DNA from: Spiroplasma tabanidicola
GTDB lineage: Bacteria > Bacillota_I > Bacilli_A > Mycoplasmatales > Mycoplasmataceae
Assembly: GCF_009730595.1 (NCBI RefSeq)
Contig: NZ_CP046276.1
Coordinates: 186,001-250,000, forward strand
Reading direction: 5' to 3'
DNA: 64,000 bases
Shown: positions 22,597 to 36,380 of the stretch, piece by piece
Layout of the letters: the number at the start of each line of letters is the position of its first letter
Position numbering within the stretch: the first letter of the stretch is position 1
The notes under the pieces: model-generated
Told to the model about the DNA's origin: nothing
Databases searched by the model: none
Seen by the model: the letters and a program-made list of their open reading frames with translations, nothing else
Program-made: the position numbers and the translations under genes

Positions 22597-24315
22597 ATGT
22601 CAAATAAATTAAACGGAATTGGAGCAAGTAACGGAATTGCAGTGGCTAGCGTATATGTTTTAGATGAACAACCAATTGTTATTCCTAAAAAGGATGCAAC
22701 CAATTTAGAGCAAGAATTAGAATTAATTAACTCTTCAATCGCAAAAGCAAAAAAAGACTTAGAAAGTTTACAAGCAATTGCAAAAGAAAAATTAGGAGAA
22801 GAAAAAGCAGCTATATTTGAAGCTCATGCTTCAATTTTAGAAGATCCAGCAATGGCTGAAGAATTTACAGCATTAATAAAAGAAAAAAACTATAATGCGG
22901 CAAGAGCTATTGATGAAGTTTCTAAAAAATACATCGAAATGTTCGGAGCTATGGAAGATGCATACTTCAAAGAAAGAGCAGCAGATGTAAAAGATGTAAC
23001 TCAAAGATTAATTCGTTATGTATTAAAAATGCCAGTTTTAGATTTAGCATCAATTAGTAGTGAAGTTATAATTGTTGCAGAAGACTTAACACCAAGTCAA
23101 ACAGCACAATTGAACCCAAAATATGTCAAAGGTTTTGCATGTAATGTTGGGGGAAGAACAAGTCATGCTGCAATTATGGCAAGAAGTTTAGAAATTCCTG
23201 CAGTTTTAGGTTTAAGAACAATTTTATCAACAGCTAAAGAAGGAGATGTTTTAGCAATTGATGGAAGTACAGGAGATGTTGAAATTAATCCTTCTGACAA
23301 ATCAGTTTGAGAAGCAAAAGCAAAAAAATTCCTTGAAGAAAAAGCAGAGTTAGAACAATTTAAAACAAAATCAACAATTACAAAAGATGGATATGATAAA
23401 TTCATTTTAGAAGGAAATATAGGTAGTCCAAAAGATGTTGCAGCTGTTTTAGAAAATGGTGGAGAAGGAGTTGGACTATTTAGATCTGAATTCTTATACA
23501 TGGACAATGATCATTTCCCAACTGAAGAAGAACAATTTGAAGCTTACAAAAAAGTTGTAAGTGATATGAATGGTAAAATGACTGTTATTAGAACACTTGA
23601 TATTGGTGGAGATAAAAAGCTAAGTTATTTTGCATTCCCAGAAGAAATGAACCCATTTTTAGGATATCGTGCTATTAGATTTACAATGGATAGAAAAGAC
23701 ATCTTTAGAGATCAAATTAGAGCATTATTAAGAGCAAGTGCATTTGGACCTGTTGGAATTATGTTTCCAATGATAGCAACAATTGATGAATTTGTTAGTG
23801 CAAAAAAATTCACTCTTGAATGTAAAGCAGAACTCGAAAAAGAAGGGGTTGCAGTTGGAAAAGATTTAGAAATTGGTATGATGGTAGAAATTCCTGCAGC
23901 TGCAGTTAATGCCGAAAACTTTGCAAAACATGCAGACTTCTTTAGTGTTGGAACAAACGATTTAATTCAATACTCAATGGCAGCAGATAGAATGAGTGAA
24001 AATGTTACATACTTATACCAACCATTTAACCCATCAATTTTAAGATTATTAAAATTGACAATAGATGGAGCTCATAAACATGGAAAATGAGCTGGTATGT
24101 GTGGAGAAATGGCTGGAGAACCAGACGCAGTTCCATTATTAATGGGATTAGGTCTTGATGCTTATTCAATGTCTGCAACAAGTATTACAAAAGCAAGAAG
24201 CATAATGTCAAAATTAACATTAGTAGAAACTCAAGAACTTGCAAAAAAAGCATTAGAATGTGAAACATCAAGTCAAGTTTTAGATTTAGTGCATAAATTA
24301 ATGAGCGATAAATAA
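22597..24315 (+). CDS. ptsI: phosphoenolpyruvate-protein phosphotransferase (PTS enzyme I)
   Basis: 572 residues, full length. Transfers phosphate from PEP to HPr. The swivelling domain has [12 protein letters not shown] with the phosphorylated H190. The C-terminal barrel binds [40 protein letters not shown], and the catalytic-Cys region [10 protein letters not shown] (W is TGA). AGGAGG precedes the ATG, with its own promoter and terminator. Works with ptsH, crr and scrA in this window. Confidence 0.97.
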
Positions 24316-24436: not shown

Positions 24437-25135
24437 ATGAAAAGAAATAAAAAATTAAAAGTTTACTTACAAATATTAATATTTACATTTTTGTTAGTTA
24501 TACTTTTTGAAAGTTTAGACAATAATAATAAATTTATGGTTTTGTTTGATCAAGTATTAGTTTTTTTAATGGTGCTTTTTTTATTTTTATCATCACTTTC
24601 AATAATAATAATTTTTTCAAAGTTTTATGAAGAAGTAAAATTAAATATATCTAAATATTCATTAATAAAAAATATTAGAAAATCTCAAAAATCAATTTTA
24701 CTGAATAAAATTACTTTATTTTTATTACCTCTAGCTTGTTATAGAGTAAATATTACTTCAAAAATTATTTTGGATACAGATGATGGAAAGAACTTTTTAA
24801 TTTCTTTAACTGTAATTTGTGCATTAGCAGTTATTTTGACTTATGTAAGTTATTTTTTAATTTTTTCTTATTTACTAGAAGCAAAAAAAAGAAATTTAAC
24901 AAAAAAAGAAGAGTTATGACAAGAGATTATTTATAGCAAAATTGAGTTGGAATTTAGAAATATTGTAGAGTTACAAAAAAACAATTTTTTGGAAAATATA
25001 AATTTAATTTTTGAAGATAATATTAGATCTTTTTTACTTATAGAAAGTAAAAAACATAATTTAATAATTAATGCGCGATTCTCTTTATTATTGTCAAATA
25101 AGAAAAAGGCCAGCACTCCTCCTGATTTTTATTAA
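24437..25135 (+). CDS. small integral membrane protein, first of two paralogues
   Basis: 232 residues, paralogous along its whole length to the protein at 26451. Four membrane helices: about 8-27, 35-60, 87-105 and 118-145. Shared landmarks are FEEVKLNISKYSLIK after helix 2, ACYRV before helix 3 and a C-terminal KKASTPP. The family occurs beside lipoprotein genes in Mesoplasma and Spiroplasma as I recall (possibly the TIGR04561-type membrane proteins). Function unknown. TATAAT at 24412-24417 is its probable -10; AGGTG precedes the ATG. The codons for TPP form an ACTCCTCCT motif, see findings. Confidence 0.75.
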
Positions 25136-25226
25136 ATATGTATTTTAAAAGCTTTTATAAATTTATATTTTTGTAATAAACAAAATATTTTTTGTTATAT
25201 CTAAAAAAATAAAAGGAGAAAAATTT

Positions 25227-26369
25227 ATGAAAAAATTACTTACTATTTTAAGTGTATTAACTATGTCTTCATTTTCAGCTTCTATTCTTGTTGCATGTGA
25301 TAGCAATAATAATCAACAAAACGAAAAAAACGATAACCCATCTAATGAAAACAATAATGTGAATAATAATAATGAAAATAATAACGAAGAAAAACCACAA
25401 GAAGAAAATAACGAATTAATAGATTTGAGTGCATTAAAATATAAAAACTTACCAGCAGGCTATATGGAAAACGGAGTCTATGATAGAGACAATGGTGCAA
25501 ATTTAGGAAATAAAAAAAATTTAGAGTATAAAATTAATGCTGAATCTATTTTGTTTTCTTTAAACCAATTAAACAAAATAGATTTAAAAAGTAGTGACAT
25601 TGAAATATCGGAAATCGATAACGGAACAGCTGGGATGAATGGAGTTGCTGTTATTAAAGCTGCAATTGGTTCTAAAAGTGTCAAAGGAGAAACTAGTTTA
25701 ATATTAAATCAAAATATTAATTTTTCAGCTTTAGTTGGAAATAGAAAACTTAATAATATTTATATTAAACAAGATATTTTTGATAATTTAGAAACTGAAA
25801 TAAAAGATCCAAATAACAAATCTGCTTTTGCTGCATATATAGTAGAACAAATCGGAGTTTCAAATCCTGCTCTTGAGGCTCTTGCAGAACCTATGGTTAG
25901 TGGTGCAGAAAAAATATTACCCAAAGTCAATTTTACAAGCAAAGAATTTGTGATTCAGGAAACACCATCACTTAATGGATTGTTTGTAGCTGATCAGAAT
26001 TTAAAATTTGAATTAAATTTTGTTAAAGACGAAAGAGCATTTTTTATAAAAAATAAAGATTCGCTCCCATTAGTAAATATGGAGTTAGATAAAAATACTG
26101 ATGTTAGCCCATCTGAAAATTACATTTCCTTAAAAAAAACAGTATACAAAAAGTTAAATAACTCTAATTCTTGAAAGAACAAAGTATCTTTAGAAGAATT
26201 TATAAAATTTACAAGAGTTCAGAAAGGAAAAAGAAATATGTATTATATAAATGTAATTGCTGGGTCTTCAAAACTTTATGGTCATGACTTTTTACTTTTC
26301 TTTATGTCAGGTAAATTATTTGATGAACAAGGATCTGTTAGAGTTAATGCACAAGTCAAAAACAATTAG
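25227..26369 (+). CDS. lipoprotein, probably MOLPALP family (first of two paralogues)
   Basis: 380 residues. A lipoprotein signal with lipobox LVAC and acylated C24 places it on the outer face of the membrane. An N/E/Q-rich linker (about 26-60) comes before a folded part. It shares with the lipoprotein at 32475 the segments YKNLPAGYMENG, ESILFSLNQLNK and GVSNPALEALAEPM; the last resembles the PAL-type motif of the mollicute MOLPALP lipoproteins, as far as I remember that family. AAAAGGAG precedes the ATG. Role unknown; substrate binding or adhesion would be guesses. Confidence 0.85.
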
Positions 26370-26450
26370 AAAAAACATTTTATTTAAGTATAAAAAAAAT
26401 ATATTTTTATAATTTTAAAGTTATAATTATTTTATTAATAAAGGTGAAAT

Positions 26451-27152
26451 ATGAAAAAAGAAAAAAAACAAAATAGCTTTATTAAAATAGTTATTTTTGC
26501 AATATTGTTATGATTCTTATTTAGTAGTCTAGATAAAAATCAAAATTTATCAATTCTTTTTAATCAAGTTTTGATTTTTTTACTTGTTTTATTTTTACTT
26601 TTTTCATCAATTTCAATAATTATAATTTTTTCTAGATATTTTGAAGAAGTAAAATTAAATATTTCTAAATATTCATTGATTAAAACTTTTAACAGATCAC
26701 AAACACCAATTTTGTTAAATAAGTTGATTATTGTTTTAGCGCCAATAGCTTGCTATAGAGTAAAATTAATAGCAAATCTATTTTTAAAAGACTTTAATCA
26801 AAACTATTATTTGTTATCACTTTTTATAATATGCACTTTAGCAGTATTGTTATCATTAGCTAGTTATTTTTTAATAGTTTCTTATTTTATTGATATGAAA
26901 AAACGTAACTTAATATTGAAAAACAATGATTTAGAAGAAGTGCTGCTAAATCAATTAAATTTAGATACAAATGATTTATTTGAAATTAAAGTAAATCAAT
27001 TTTATAATTCAATTAATATTATTTTTGAAAACAACATTAGAGCTTTTATTTTAGTTGAAAATGAAAAACATAACTTAAAAGTTAATAGTTATTTTTCTAT
27101 TTTATTAAACAATAACAAAAAGGCAACAACTCCTCCTCGATTATCTTTTTAA
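26451..27152 (+). CDS. small integral membrane protein, second of two paralogues
   Basis: 233 residues, paralogue of the protein at 24437. Same four-helix plan, with FEEVKLNISKYSLIK, ACYRVK and a C-terminal KKATTPPRLSF. The helix-3 region is less conserved than the ends. AAGGTG precedes the ATG, with TATAAT upstream in a stretch (TTTAAAGTTATAATTAT) that is also present at about 16167, ahead of the ABC operon. Directly precedes the large FtsX-type permease. The repeated neighbourhood of this small protein, a lipoprotein and a permease suggests one surface complex. This is inference. Confidence 0.75.
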
Positions 27153-27213
27153 TTCTTTTTATTCAAAATTTTAATGAATTAATATTAAGAGAGGAATAGG
27201 TTTAACGACCTTG

Positions 27214-30200
27214 ATGAATATGCGGATACAAAAACCTTTTTTTAAAAACGCATTTAAAAACATTTTAAAAAACAAAATTCAGTTTATTACTGTTATTATT
27301 TTGATTTTTATAAGTAGTTTGGTTTTTACAATGTGTTACTCTGCAACTTCTAGAATAAATAAATCATACAATGAATATTCTTCACAAAAAGAAAGTAATT
27401 TACATGATTTTGTTGCAGATTTCACTTCAACTTCTTACATCAGTAACGAAGACAATGAAGACAAAATAAATTTTAAAAAATTATCTGATCCATTAATAAG
27501 AGATAATTTAGTTTTAACTTATATAAAAAATAAGTTACAAGATACTAATAACAGTTTTGTTTTTGATAGAGTTGAAGCAAGACAGTTTTCATTATCTACA
27601 AATAAAACTTTAAAAGTTGTAATTTTAAATCCTGAACAAAAAGTAGACAAATTTGTTGTTGAAGAAGGTATGGATTTAAACACTTGGACAACTTATTCAA
27701 AAGCTACAAATAATTTAAGTTTAAAATGAGCTTATATTGATAGAAGATTTGCAGATTATAATAATATTAAATTAAACGATATTATTAGATTACAAGATGA
27801 TAAATTTGGTAGTTCAATTCTTGTAAAGAATAGCCAAAATAAGGATAAAGATTTTGATAAAACTTTAAAAGAACATGAAAATGAAGATATTAGTTTGTGA
27901 ATGAACAATACTCCATACAATGAACTTAGTTGATTTCAAGTAGTTGGATTTGGTAGTTCAGCTGATTTTGTAACACCAATTGTAAATTCTGAAAAACCAC
28001 TTCCTAATTATAAAGAAGAAGCATTGGTTTATGTGAACCCATTAAATTTTGGAATTACATATAAATACTATGAAACAGTTTTTGCAAATAATGAATTTAG
28101 TTTAAACAATTATGGTTCTACAAAAATTTGATATTCAGACAATCAAATATCAAACTATGAAACTTTGAAAGTTATATCTGATGCTGATAAAGAAATTTAT
28201 TTTGTAGGAAAATTTGCAAATGAAAAATATAAAGCAAATTCTATAGAATATTTGAATAATTTAATAGAAAGTTTTGAAGTATCAAAAGAAATTGGATTAA
28301 AGTCTAATTACATAAATGCTTTAAATGAAAATGCAAAAATATTTACAAAAACAGGTGATTCTAACTATTCAATGGGAGCTAGAACTAGTACTTTTCCGTT
28401 TATATTAATAATATTTAATGTTGTTTCATATGTTTTAATTGCAATTATTTTAGGAATTGGAATTGTAATTTTAATAGCACAATTAAAATTGCAATTAGAA
28501 AAAGCTTTTGGCCAAATGGGAGTAATGATTTCATTGGGTTATAAAAAAATTCAGTTGATACTTTCAAATAGTATTTATGCATTTATTATTGCATTAGTTG
28601 GAGGAACTATTGGATATATTTGTGGATACTTTTTACAATTTTTAATAATTACTGTTTTTGATAAATTTTTTGCTATTCAAATTCAACAAATTAGTTTTAA
28701 TTTAGAATCATTCATTATATCTATTTTTGGGATTTTTGCATTTTTAGAGTTTGTAACTCTTATAACATGTATTTATATGTTTAACAAAAATACTGTTTTA
28801 GAAATGATAAATTACGAACAAAGAAGTGCTACAACTAGATTTAATTTATTTTTTAAAAAATTATTTATTAGAAGAACAAAAAACTTTAACTCTAAATTCT
28901 CAGGAGCAATCTTATCAAGCTCTGTATTAAAATTGTTTGCAGTTTTAGTTTCTATGTTTGTTGCAGCAACAATGACAACAGCAAGCATAATTATGCCACA
29001 TGTTCTAAAAGAAAACCAAAAATATATTTACAGCGGTGATGAATATGATAATAAGGTTACTTATTATTCTCCAATTTATAATGATCCAGTTTCTTTTTAT
29101 AAAACTTATAATCCTGAATCAACAAATAAAAATTATGACTCTTTAGATGCAAAAAATTTAATTGATAGTTATTTAAAAAATAATATAAGTTCAAAGTTTT
29201 TTAATCCATCAAATGACTTGGGTGAATTAAATGATATGAGTTATAAAAATATTGATTTAGATTATTTAAAAAGCAAAGATTTATATTTACAAAATAACTC
29301 ACAAAATAGTTCTGATTTATTAATAACTTCTCTAACAGGAAGTTTGTGACCTGATATATATAGATATGTAAAACCTTCATGATTAAATAATAAAAAAGAA
29401 TTTATGGATGTACTATTTAATGCTAATAACTCAAGAAATGCAATTGAAGACTTAGAAAATATGAGATTATTTTATTTAAAATATAAACATACAATCGGAT
29501 TAAATATTAGAAGAGAAGGTTACTTTGTAAAAAGAACATCTTTACTTACATCGCTTGCAAGTGATGGTGGACCTAATAATGACTTAATATCTGCAAATGA
29601 GTTTGCAAGTAATTCTTCAATACCAATAAGTGTTAATATCGAAAAAGACGGAAGCATAATGAATGATGAAGTATTTCAAAACTCTTTATATAAATTTGTA
29701 AATAGTTCAAATTATATGTCAGAGTCAGTTGTTATATGTGGACCGATTTATAATTGAATAGTTGCTTATTTTAGAGCTAACTTACAACAAATTTTTTTAC
29801 AAGGAATTTATACAAGCTTACCTTCAAACATTAGAGACATAATGTTAAAAGAATTTGAAAAGGATAATGGCTCATTTAATATGTCTTTTGGGACAACTCC
29901 TTTTAATCAAGAAAATGAAGAGTTGGGAACATATTTAAATTCTGAATTAAAAAATATTGATTTTAAAGTTTATGGTATTAATCAAAATGGATTACAAAAA
30001 CTTTATGACAATAATTCAAATGATATTAAAGCAAAACTTGTTGAAAAAGATTCAATAATAATAAATGAAACATTAGCGAAGAAATTAAAATTAAAAGTTG
30101 GACAAACAGTTGATATTAATCACATCATTGAATATTTAGAAAAAGATGGTCAAGAACTTGGTGTTGATAGTTGAAATACTAATAAGATCAATGCACAAGA

Positions 30201-31353
30201 TTCTGAAGGATATACTAGTTCTAAAAATATTTATAAAAACTCAGTTTTAAATTCAAAAAAAATAGGGTGAACTAATAGCAAAATGATTCAAGATGATGTA
30301 GATGAGCAAGAAAAAGATTTAGTTTATTATTCTAGAATAGACTTATCAAGTGATAGTATGGTTTCTCCAACTAGTATGTCAAAACAAATTAAAAAAGGAG
30401 CAATCAAAAAAAAGGTTAAGAAAATAAATAAAGAATATAAAGTTGTAGGAATTGCAAATCAGTATGGAGTTTCAAAAGCATGAATAGATAATGAAACTGC
30501 AAATGAACAAGCACAATACAATAAAACAAAACCATTATTATTTAGTTTATTTATTAAAGAATGATCAAATCCAAAAAGTTTAGTGAGTGGTTCAGAAGAA
30601 CAAATTTTTGTAAACAAGTTGAAAGAGTTTAACAATACATCAACTTTATTTAATAGTAATTATGAAAATTTTGTAAATTGAACAAATTCAAACCAAGATT
30701 TTAATAAATATTTAACTTTATTTAATAATGAGTATCCGATATTTAATTATAAAAACTCAAATGATAAATCATTTAGTGATTTATCTAAGGGTATTACAAC
30801 AATTCAAAGATATGGAGATTACACAATATTTGGATTAAAAGGTGGAAAAGTAAATGGAGCTAACCAAACTTCATATTCAGCATTTTCACAATCACCAATT
30901 GAAAGCGTTTGACAATATGATGCTGCAATTGAAATTTTATCTAGAATTGAAAAAACTCTTAACTCGATTATTTTTACATTGTTGCCAATTATATTAATTA
31001 TTAGTTTTATAGTAATTTTATTAACAATTAACTCTGTTATTGCAAAAAATCAAAAAATTATTGCGATGATGAAAATACTAGGATATAGCAAAGTTTATAT
31101 TTCTAGATTATTTATAGGTATATATATTCCACCTGCAATTCTAGGATCAATTCTAGGATTTGTAGCAGGCTGGTTCTTTTTGAAACTAACTTTATATAAT
31201 GCAATAACTTCAATATTATTACCATTTAATTTCTACATTTGATATTTAATCGTTGGAGGGTTTGGAACATTTGTTCTTTACTTAATTAGTGTTGCTATAA
31301 GTTGAAATGCACTAAGAAGAGTAAATATGCTAATTGCTGTTCAAGGAGGATAA
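27214..31353 (+). CDS. FtsX-type ABC transporter permease, very large
   Basis: 1379 residues. After an N-terminal helix (about 18-40) comes an ectodomain, then FtsX-type membrane segments around 395-530 (GQMGVMISLGYKKIQLILSN), a long second ectodomain, and a last FtsX unit from about 1250 to the C-terminus (MMKILGYSKVYISRLFIG). This is the MacB/LolC-like layout, enlarged. No ATPase gene is adjacent. The start is not secure: GAGGAA lies about 17 bases before the ATG at 27214, a TTG precedes it, and a second ATG follows at 27220. The codon after that ATG is CGG, rare here and unassigned in some relatives. A lipoprotein gene starts two bases after the stop. Confidence 0.85.
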
Positions 31354-31354
31354 A

Positions 31355-32455
31355 ATGAAAAAACTTTTAAAATTACTTTTAGTAGTTACAAGTATGGTTC
31401 AACCTATTATTATTGTAAGTTGTGATAAAAAACAAACCAATACTTTAATAGATAGACCAGAACCAATTTTACCTATCTCTAAACAGGGATTTGAAAATGT
31501 AAATATTGATGCAATTGAAATTGATAAAATTATGTACAACTATGATTTGTATGAACAAGTAATTGAACAGCTTAAAAAAGCAAATTATAATGTAAATGAT
31601 ATTAATGTAAGTGTTATAAAAAACGGAATAAATACTTTAGATAAAGATAATTCCGATTTATTTAGAAATGGAACATATGAATGAACTTTTTCTAATAAGA
31701 ATAATGATAAAGAATATATAAAAGCAAAACTAATTATTACAAACTCATTAAATTTAGCTGATATATTTAGTGCTTTAAATATTGGAACAATTTATGACAG
31801 TCGTCCAAAATCAATATTGATAGGTTTACTAACTAAGAATTTAAACTTAATAAATATGATTGAACAAATTTCAGAGCAGTTAATTGATGTAAAAAATTAT
31901 ATTTACAATCAAAATAATAAATCTGCAATTATAAAAATTTCAGAAGATAATGATTTTCCAAAATTAAGTGGTGGAAAAGATGTTATCCCTAAAAAGTTTT
32001 ATGGGTCAATAGAAGTTAATTTTGAAATACAAAAATTTGATTATGCAAAATTAAATGATGATCAAAAAGGAATAACATTTAATCAATTTTGAAAAAATTT
32101 AAATTATATTTCTAGTAGTGATATAAATATGCCTAATAATATTGGAATAATAAATCAATTTAATATTTATAGTTTATTAATGAGTTTAATTATTACAAAT
32201 TTTACTACTGGTGAATCACAATTTTATTGACCAATAATAATAAATGATATTTTATCTGAAGAACAAAACTCATTTAAACCAGAAAAATCAGATAAACCAA
32301 ATGCTATTGAAGGAAAAGATTTTATGGTAAATATTTATTTTAAAGAATATAAAAATGAATATCCAAATGATGCAAGTAATGAACAACTTGATAAAAACTC
32401 ATTTATTTTTGATCAAAAAGAACCAGTAAAACTATATTTTAAATACTTAAATTAA
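31355..32455 (+). CDS. lipoprotein next to the FtsX-type permease
   Basis: 366 residues. The signal peptide ends in lipobox IVSC with C23. An AAGGAGG site lies inside the end of the permease gene, so the two are probably translationally linked. The mature part has no repeat and is rich in N, K, I and D. I do not recognise the family; it is not clearly related to the lipoproteins on either side. Its place suggests a surface partner of the permease. Confidence 0.82.
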
Positions 32456-32474
32456 GTAAAAAAGGAGAAAAAAA

Positions 32475-33587
32475 ATGAAAAAATTACTAGCTATTTTAGG
32501 AGTATTAACAATGATGTCTACAACATCTTCGGTAGTTGTAGCTTGTGGAGAAGATAATACATCTGATAATTCAAGTAATAACAAACCAGTTGATCCAGAA
32601 AGTCCAACAGACCCAAATACTCCAAATGAAGATTTGATTGATTTAGCAAAATTACAATATAAAAATCTTCCAGCAGGTTTCATGGAAGCTGGTGCTTATG
32701 ATAGAAACAATGGGAAAAATTTAGGATCAGAAAATAATGAAAATCAAGTAGATTTTTATAAAATTAATTCAGAGTCTGTTTTATTTTCTTTAAATCAAAT
32801 GAATAAATTAAGTTTATCAAGTGACGATGTTGATATTTCTGAAATATCAAATGGAGAATCACATAATGGTTATGGTGGAGTAGCTGTTATTAAAGCTAAA
32901 ACTGGATCAAAAAAAGCAAAAGGAGAAGCATCTTTAATTTTAAATCAAAGTATTGATTTCAAAGCTCTAGTTGGTAATACCAATTTAGATAATATATACA
33001 TTAAAGAAGATATTTTCAATGATTTAGAAAATCAAATGAAAAATGAAAGTAATATGCAAGCATTTGCTGCTTTTATCATTGAACAAATAGGAGTTGCAAA
33101 TCCAGCTCTTGAAGCATTAGCTACACCAATGATGTATGGCGCTGCAGGAATAATACCTAATACAAGTTTTACTCCAACTGAGTTTAATATTTCAAAGACA
33201 CCTTCTTTAGATGGATTATTTGTAGCTGCACAAGATTTGGTATTTAAAACTAAGTTTGTTAAAGATGATAGAGTAGTGTTAACAAGTTCTGATACTCAAA
33301 ACATACAACTAAATAAAACCGTTAACCAAGACTCAAAAAATAATTACATTGAAATAAAAAAAGCGGCATATAATAAATTAGGTAATACAGGAAATTGAAA
33401 AAGCAAAGTAGATGTCAACGAATTTATCAAATATTCAAGGGTGGAAAAAAAAGAATCAGGATATACAGTTTATGTCATTTCGGGCTCATCTAAAATTTAT
33501 GGACATGATGTATTATTGCCATTTGTCGCTGGAAAATTATTAGTTGCCAATGCAGTAGTAGATATTGAAGTAACAATAGCAGCTTAA
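32475..33587 (+). CDS. lipoprotein, probably MOLPALP family (second of two paralogues)
   Basis: 370 residues. Lipobox VVAC with C24. Paralogue of the lipoprotein at 25227, sharing LxYKNLPAGxME, GVAVIKAxxGSK and QIGVANPALEALATPM. The low-complexity linker differs (proline/threonine rather than asparagine/glutamate rich), which is expected in a fast-evolving exposed spacer. AAAGGAG precedes the ATG; the previous gene ends 19 bases before, so it probably belongs to the permease transcript. Confidence 0.85.
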
Positions 33588-33671: not shown

Positions 33672-34148
33672 ATGGGATTATTTACAAAAAATAAAAGTTT
33701 AGAAGTTTTTGCACCTGTTGATGGAGAAGTAATAGACTTATCAACAGTTAAAGATGATGTTTTTGCAGAAGGTATGCTAGGTGATGGTTTAGCTTTTGTT
33801 CCTGCAAGTGGAGAATTTTATGCTCCAATTGATGGAAAATTAGTTACAGTATTTCCATCAGGACATGCTTATGGAATTGCAAATAAAAATGGAGTAGAAA
33901 TTTTACTACACATTGGAATTGACACAGTTTCTCTTGAAGGAAAAGGGTTTGATGTTAAAGTTAAACAAAATCAAACTGTATCAAAAGGTGAATTACTTGT
34001 AGTAGTAGATTTAAAAGAAGTATCTTCAAAAGTTCCATCAATGCAAACACCATTAATTTTTACAACTGATTCAATGCAAGGTAAGCAAATTGAAATTGTA
34101 AAAAAAGGTAAAGTTTCTAAAGGTGACTTAGTAGCAATAGTAAAATAA
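33672..34148 (+). CDS. crr: PTS system glucose-type IIA component
   Basis: 158 residues. Takes phosphate from HPr and passes it to EIIB domains of the glucose/sucrose superfamily. ILLHIGIDTVSLEGKGF contains the phosphorylated H80, and SGHAYGI contains the second active-site His. The scrA protein in this window has no IIA domain, so this soluble protein is the likely phosphate donor for it. AAAGGGG precedes the ATG. A terminator follows. Confidence 0.96.
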   Translation: MGLFTKNKSLEVFAPVDGEVIDLSTVKDDVFAEGMLGDGLAFVPASGEFYAPIDGKLVTVFPSGHAYGIANKNGVEILLHIGIDTVSLEGKGFDVKVKQNQTVSKGELLVVVDLKEVSSKVPSMQTPLIFTTDSMQGKQIEIVKKGKVSKGDLVAIVK

Positions 34149-34180: not shown

Positions 34181-34228
34181 ATTTTTATAGAGTAAAATAA
34201 CCTTAGATTAATTTTGGAGCTGAAATAA

Positions 34229-35479
34229 ATGATTAATAAAAAAGACTATTATAAAATTTTAGATGTTAATAAAGAAACTAAAATTAAAGATATTAAAAAA
34301 TCATATAAAGACAAAGCAAAAGAACTAAATGTTAATGTTGACATGGAAAATAAAAACGATTTTATAGAGTTATGTGAAGCTGCAATTGTATTGACTGATA
34401 AAAAAAAGAAAAGGCTTTATGACAATGGTGGTTTTGAAAAAGTTTATGGAAATAATCTAGAAAATTATACAGTTTTAAGTTTTGATGATTCTTATAAATT
34501 TTTTATGGGTAAATATAAAGATACAAATAACAAAATTTTTTTAAATAAGTTTACAAATTTTCAAGAAAAAGTTTATGGTTTAACAACAAGTGGTTTTAAT
34601 TTTAAGTCTTTAAAATGAAAAACTGATGGTTTAATTTTTCTGGCATCAACTTTATTTTTTCCATTTTTAATTTCTGTTATGGCAAAGTTGCTTTTTACTT
34701 GATCTGATAAAACTGAAACTGCATTGCAATTCATATATATTATTTCTGTTACAGTTGGGGCAATTGTTTTGATTGCATATCATAAATCTGGTTATTTTAA
34801 ATATGGTTATGCATGACAGTTTTTATTTGTAATAATACCTTTATTAGCATTAATTTTGGTTATCGCATTTTCAAATGCTAATCAATATATTTTAGCTATG
34901 GTTGTAAATTTAGTTCCAAAATTCATATTACTTATCTTGATACTTTATATTGATAAAAAAACAAGAAAAATAATTATAGAAACATTTAAAAAACATTGAT
35001 TAACACTTTTAATCACTTGTGTTTTTGGATTTATAATAATTATAGGAATAAATTTATTAGTGTCTGGAGTGATAGAGCAAAAATTATTTAAGTTAGCAGA
35101 ATCTAAAAATGAGTCTAATTTAGCAGGAGCATTATCTGATCAAAATGCTTCTAAAACAACAAAAATAACATATGCAATTTTATTAGTTCTTTATGCAGTG
35201 ATGGTGGCTCCTTTTGTTGAGGAAATGGCATTTAGAAGTGCTTGATTTTTAAACGTTTCAAATAAATGATTAGCATATGTAACAAGCTCAATTGCATTTG
35301 GGTTTATTCACTATGGATTTAGTGGAGATTTTGAACACGTACTTTCATATTCAGCAGGAGGATTTATTCTTGGTGGAGTATTTATATGAACCAAAGGAAA
35401 TATAACATACAGTTGATTGGTTCACATGGGAAACAACTTATTTGCAGTAATTGTGTTATTAGTAAGCGTAAGTTGATAG
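34229..35479 (+). CDS. J-like domain fused to a CPBP-family intramembrane metalloprotease
   Basis: 416 residues. Residues 1-70 look like a DnaJ J-domain (KKDYYKILDVNKETKIKDIKKS, then KKKRLYDNGG), but the HPD tripeptide needed to stimulate Hsp70 is replaced by NVN. From about residue 130 there are about seven to eight membrane helices. The last part has the CPBP (CAAX-protease/bacteriocin-processing) motifs: EEMAFR with E331, E332 and R336; FIHYGF; and the VHMGNN HxxxN. The metal site looks complete, so the protease part may be active. GGAG precedes the ATG. The pseudouridine synthase gene follows seven bases after the stop. Substrate unknown. Confidence 0.82.
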
Positions 35480-35486
35480 GAGAAAT

Positions 35487-36380
35487 ATGACAATATTAAA
35501 AGTAAATAAAAATGATGAAAATCAAACAATTTTTAATTTTATTAAAAAGAATTTTAAAACAACAAGTTTATCAGTTATATATAAATGATTTAGAACCAAT
35601 AAAATAAAATTAAATGAAAAAAGAATTAAAGATCAAAAGAGAGTTTTAAAATTAGGAGATGAAATCAAAGTTTATGATAGTGCTTCTATTTCTAAAAGAA
35701 ATGAAGAAAAACTTGTAGATTATTCTGAATTAAAAATAATATATGAAGATGAAAATTTATTAATTGTAGATAAACCTTCAAATCTTGAAATGCATTCTTT
35801 AATAAACATTTGTTTAGATCAAATAGTAAGAAGTTATTTGATAGATACTAATAAATATGATGTGGAACTTGAAAATAGTTTTGTAATAAGCCACGTTCAT
35901 CGCCTTGATAAATTAACAAAGGGATTAGTTATTTATGCCAAAAATAAAAAAAGTTTAGATATCTTATTACAAGCAATTCAAGATAAAGATAATATTGAAA
36001 AATTTTATCTAGCCAAATTGGAAAATAACAATATTAAAACAGGACTAATTGAAGGTTTTATTGATTATAATAGTGATACTCAATTAGCAAATTTCAGCTT
36101 AAAAGATAACAAGTTTTTTAAATCTTGTTCTCAAGAACAAAATTGATTTAATAAAGAAGAAAATATTTTAGAGGTAAAACTTTTGACCGGTAGAAAACAT
36201 CAAATCAGAGCAATTTGTTCTTATTTTAAATCTCCAATAGTTGATGACTTTAGATATGGAGCTAAAAAATCTAAGAATAGATCAATTGATTTAATTGCGT
36301 ATAAATTAATATTTAAAAACTTTAGTGATGAATTAAGTTATTTAAATGACAAAGAATTTTGCTCCACATTCATTTTCTAA
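35487..36380 (+). CDS. RluA-family RNA pseudouridine synthase
   Basis: 297 residues. An S4-like RNA-binding part (about 1-75, with LNEKRIKDQKRVLKLGDEIK) is followed by the catalytic domain: IVDKPSNLEMHS, then HVHRLDKLTKGLVIYAK, where the D of HRLD is the catalytic base, then LLTGRKHQIRA. Likely targets 23S rRNA (RluC/RluD-like), but the exact uridine cannot be read from sequence. GGAG precedes the ATG; probably co-transcribed with the J-like/CPBP gene. Confidence 0.9.

Follow-up and report, generated by a model that had tools for sequence, protein, structure and literature searches.

The product of the gene described here is one protein in which a short helical linker connects a J-like domain to a CPBP-family membrane protease of nine helices, with the active-site motifs of the protease complete. 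It lies in a window of 64,000 nucleotides from Spiroplasma tabanidicola; spiroplasmas are insect-associated bacteria. The fusion is real and not a chance resemblance, because both of its Pfam matches exceed their curated cut-offs. Both parts belong to known families. The combination of CPBP protease and J domain is new, as are its probable origin in one event and the loss of the HPD tripeptide on two occasions. A literature search on both terms turned up no paper that joins the two, as far as titles and abstracts disclose; the paper holding both is an iron-limitation study of Bacteroidetes, irrelevant by its title and abstract.

A single protein with two modules

The initial annotation had allowed that the two parts might be translated separately, an idea we rejected. 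The open reading frame runs exactly between the ends given in Table 1 and reads nine TGA codons as tryptophan. Its first ATG is preceded by GGAG, and none of the three fused genes we found has, between J domain and protease, an internal start codon preceded by a ribosome-binding site at a suitable distance. Over codons 2 to 130 of the window gene, the sole in-frame candidate is a GTGA 13 nt before a TTG at residue 55, which falls inside the J domain itself. With one reading frame and no plausible internal start, nothing points to two separate products.

Table 1. Features of the fusion gene and its immediate neighbors (positions are those of the window)
Feature	Position	Strand	Residues	Basis or remark
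crr-like PTS EIIA, upstream neighbor	33672..34148	+		Pfam PTS_EIIA_1, 158.7 bits; gene order
Shine-Dalgarno-like GGAG	34216..34219	+		9 nt upstream of the first ATG of the fusion gene
J-like domain and CPBP intramembrane protease fusion gene	34229..35479	+		Uninterrupted code-4 open reading frame, 416 aa
J(-like) domain	34244..34423	+	6-65	Pfam DnaJ, 36.0 bits, and model helices
HPD position, here N34-V35-N36	34328..34336	+	34-36	Gapless alignment with HPD of G009 and YPQ of G010
Linker helices between J domain and membrane	34481..34576	+	85-92, 99-116	AF2
N-terminal transmembrane hairpin ahead of the CPBP core	34616..34783	+	130-155, 160-185	AF2 helices
CPBP/Rce1-like polytopic core	34814..35467	+	196-413	Pfam and structural matches
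Catalytic motif 1, EEMAFR	35219..35236	+	331-336	EExxxR in 30/30 orthologues
Catalytic motif 2, FGFIH	35297..35311	+	357-361	FxxxH in 30/30 orthologues
Catalytic motif 3, HMGNN	35423..35437	+	399-403	HxxxN in 30/30 orthologues
RluA-family pseudouridine synthase	35487..36380	+		Pfam PseudoU_synth_2, 88 bits; 7 nt downstream of the fusion gene

The N-terminus had been called J-like from its layout, and so it proved. Pfam DnaJ (PF00226) matches it with 36.0 bits (E=7.4e-9) against a curated cut-off of 27.8 bits. An AlphaFold (AF2) model of the full protein, for which 28 orthologues served as input with the J region present in only three, has a mean pLDDT of 90.7 and a pTM of 0.78, and places J helices I to IV at residues 7-10, 19-32, 39-56 and 58-67. 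Averaged over blocks of ten residues, pLDDT across these helices is for the most part 91-96; it falls to 77 at the N-terminus and to 75 in the loop between helices II and III (residues 31-40) that bears the tripeptide. In VIA-align comparisons, the N-terminal part matches the DnaK-bound J-domain of DnaJ (5nro_B) with Z 8.1 and rmsd 1.4 over 60 residues, and other J or J-like proteins with Z up to 11.9. Profile score, model and structural matches agree on the four-helix J fold, so the objection that structure prediction might give no such fold falls away. HPD is required for Hsp70 stimulation. It is absent here, as had been noticed: NVN aligns without gaps to H34-P35-D36 of the related protein from genome G009, introduced below. 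We file the domain as J-like, and not as a canonical J-domain, because NVN replaces HPD. Nor is this a type I DnaJ, for which the protein scores 42 of 377 bits (TIGR02349); Pfam finds DnaJ and Rce1-like matches only, with no G/F, zinc-finger or C-terminal substrate domain.

The protease half is equally recognizable. Pfam Rce1-like/CPBP (PF02517) matches residues 316-405 with 52.2 bits (E=7.8e-14), where the curated cut-off is 22.4 bits. The site that the initial annotation took to be complete, EExxxR / FxxxH / HxxxN, is indeed so: all three motifs are there, and each of the 30 orthologues scanned retains the pattern. Modeled alone, the protease part reaches pLDDT 92.4 and pTM 0.91, and its two best structural matches are Rce1 (4cad), with Z 7.8 over 183 residues, and, with Z 6.9 over 205 residues, SpdC (6u0o), the next having Z 5.0. 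Being below Z 8, these matches support rather than prove the predicted Rce1-type polytopic fold. The match to Rce1 begins beyond the transmembrane hairpin, at residue 192. A profile search of the PDB with the alignment found no match, the profile being too short to include the J region and the CPBP part too distant. With 38 of 270 bits on the MroQ equivalog profile (NF046050), the protein falls far below that family's cut-off. It is the only CPBP protease encoded in the window genome.

CPBP proteases cut at sites accessible from the cytosolic side. Sorted by predicted side of the membrane, basic residues number 26 (K/R) before TM1 and 6 in the TM4-5 loop, with few outside. Because of these counts we infer that the N-terminus, and the J domain with it, is cytosolic and so faces the side that would give access to CPBP/Rce1 active sites. 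The linker in between varies, and its end (about 108-118) merges into a pre-membrane segment common to the unfused orthologues.

Locus, distribution and origin of the fusion

The protease is an old resident of this locus. All 20 Spiroplasma genomes that we compared have an orthologue, and in 17 of them it stands at the same locus with no J domain. The J region occurs in just three: the window genome (labeled G000) and two related Spiroplasma, G009 and G010. The initial annotation had proposed looking for the fusion in other Mollicutes, and it did not turn out to be common there. Among 320 genomes of the order it was confined to these same three species, and no further example appeared in 296 genomes drawn from the class or 392 from the phylum, the samples overlapping. 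Open reading frame listings place the start of the unfused genes a short way upstream of the conserved pre-membrane segment, and where the J domain would be, the N-terminal extensions of these orthologues are varied and poorly conserved. Apparent J remnants ahead of them, matching from query residue 21-22, were discarded, as the matches run through stop codons.

The surroundings are conserved too. The protease sits before the RluA-type synthase in all 30 genomes examined (the window and 29 orthologous loci), a linkage kept in every genome of the family that we examined for no evident functional reason, and crr adjoins the protease in most of the 20 genus genomes. Further upstream in the window, ptsI (22597-24315) and crr (33672) are separated by a block at 24437-33587 that encodes three lipoproteins, two small membrane proteins and an FtsX-like permease of 1379 aa. 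Several other Spiroplasma genomes have ptsI and crr directly adjacent; between them G009 has a similar block and G010 a single lipoprotein gene.

A tree built on the CPBP core together with its neighbors crr and the synthase groups the three fused species as a single clade inside the genus (94/81), with G000 and G009 as sisters (100/99). The simplest reading is that the J domain was gained once, in their common ancestor. Its likely source is the 5' end of dnaJ. When the HPD-bearing J region of G009 is compared with the J proteins of the genus, the N-termini of housekeeping DnaJ score best (50-62 bits) and all others 30 bits or less; the match to DnaJ extends beyond the J domain to include the post-J YDxxGxxGLxG stretch, a similarity over only about 75 residues. 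At the tripeptide, G009 has HPD, G010 YPQ and G000 NVN. Since G009 belongs to the clade, and a source of the DnaJ type would have brought HPD with it, the tripeptide was most likely present in the ancestor, with separate losses in the lines leading to G000 and G010.

Selection on the J domain and competing explanations

We fitted a codon model to the three fused species. Residues 1-70 return an omega of 0.135 (against 1, p=4e-9) and the protease part 0.062, values of which only the direction is trustworthy since synonymous sites are saturated; the linker (81-107), where the fit did not converge, is left out. Rough as these omegas are, they suggest that the J domain has been kept under net purifying selection. 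Its two halves have fared differently. Between G000 and G009, residues 43-80 are 71% identical and residues 1-42 33%, and in the N-half first-position changes are as many as third-position changes. Along the window branch the C-half (43-80) departs from neutrality (p=0.04), neutrality is not rejected for the N-half (p=0.12) and the J region as a whole is borderline (p=0.058). The half with the Hsp70-contacting tripeptide has loosened; the other half has been held.

Some of these numbers suit another account, in which a dnaJ 5' end landed by accident before the protease gene and left debris, an unused J domain that tolerates the loss of HPD and is itself drifting toward loss. HPD has after all been lost twice, the N-half has diverged in just the manner described, with neutrality not rejected along the window branch, and the Pfam DnaJ score is 36 bits here against 56 and 63 in the fused relatives. 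Against debris stand a frame that is intact across three diverged species, purifying selection over the whole J region, the identity of helices III-IV given above and a model that retains all four helices at high confidence; we consider it the main rival but somewhat unlikely. The opposite extreme is that the J domain is still a partner of DnaK in each of the three species, through residues other than HPD or through a partner DnaJ, making this a DnaK-assisted membrane protease throughout. DnaK (one full-length copy) and DnaJ are present in the window genome, where J proteins besides the fusion number three; G009 retains HPD; and the basic patch of helix II is partly kept in the window protein (K23, K24, K27). 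Against this, the tripeptide needed for Hsp70 stimulation (PMC11349236) has been replaced in two of the three, and we regard DnaK dependence across the clade as improbable. Least probable of all, to our minds, is that the domain has no binding partner and is merely a folded, soluble N-terminus that aids translation start, insertion or turnover, a tag for stability or localization. The varied extensions that unfused orthologues bear at the same place would accord with such a tag, yet residues 43-80 are more conserved than mere foldedness would need.

Our preferred reading, held tentatively, starts from a cytosolic J tether that first linked DnaK to the protease and then became, in the window species, an Hsp70-independent docking or regulatory module. 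The variable linker and the 17 genus genomes that manage with no J domain count against this reading. The view of the initial annotation that the domain should not activate Hsp70 is a fair inference in this species; it does not extend to the architecture as such, since the sister G009 keeps HPD.

Known relatives and a possible mechanism

Comparison with known systems helps to frame this history. With the glutamic-type intramembrane proteases of the CPBP/Rce1-like family (PF02517; Rce1, MroQ) the window protein shares its three catalytic motifs and polytopic fold, and it adds the transmembrane hairpin before the core and the J domain at the N-terminus. It resembles type I DnaJ over the first ~75 residues, where helix order and the post-J stretch agree as well, but it is without the zinc-finger and C-terminal domains, has NVN for HPD and is joined to a membrane protease. 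Staphylococcal LnsB/SpdC have the CPBP fold in common with it and have lost catalytic motifs (PMC7387801). We dropped an LnsB-like role in acylation because LnsB lacks the motifs that are intact here. Pam16 and trypanosome Pam18 (TbPam18) are likewise membrane-bound J folds with no canonical HPD, although these are eukaryotic and have no protease. Both are presumed to function with no direct stimulation of Hsp70, and TbPam18 has HSD at the HPD position (PMC11349236).

Spiroplasma genomes hold other J domains at the membrane. Proteins with a transmembrane segment and a C-terminal J domain occur in the same genomes; they too set a J domain beside a membrane anchor, but at the other end of the chain, with HPD mostly intact and no protease. 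One of them, a single-span protein with an HPD-bearing J domain (G006 C1:319506-320363, L086 and orthologues), is present in 16 of 20 genus genomes, and no full-length match to it was found in G000, G009, G010 or G004. The missing match and the presence of the fusion are a correlation only, because G004 has no fusion either. In a further membrane-anchored J-like protein, about 240-260 aa long (L074 in G009, L077 in G010), YKD stands where HPD would be, so the fusion is not alone in having lost HPD at the membrane.

In the history that we prefer, the 5' end of dnaJ would have been fused ahead of the CPBP protease gene once. The original J domain would have recruited DnaK to the protease, there to hold, hand over or unfold the tails of membrane proteins for cleavage, the proteolytic step itself probably being the ancestral CPBP function. 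G009, with HPD intact, may still couple DnaK to the protease. In the window species and G010, where HPD is gone, the module most likely acts independently of Hsp70. By analogy with Pam16 and trypanosome Pam18, helices III-IV and the GGFEKxYG stretch that follows may form a docking or regulatory surface for a substrate or partner. Substrate delivery or quality control, which the initial annotation suggested, is a possible role for the fusion. A more specific scenario, which we think unlikely, has a chaperone-coupled CPBP protease whose J domain was made into an Hsp70-independent substrate adaptor in two descendants, so that the three species display stages of one repurposing.

To our knowledge, how CPBP proteases choose their substrates is largely unknown outside Rce1, and a J domain fused to such a protease suggests that the choice is made at the cytosolic face. 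At one conserved locus, spiroplasmas present a natural series of the protease with no J domain, with a J domain bearing HPD and with a J domain without it. The series offers a comparison for the involvement of Hsp70, and it helps in asking why J domains that have lost HPD persist.
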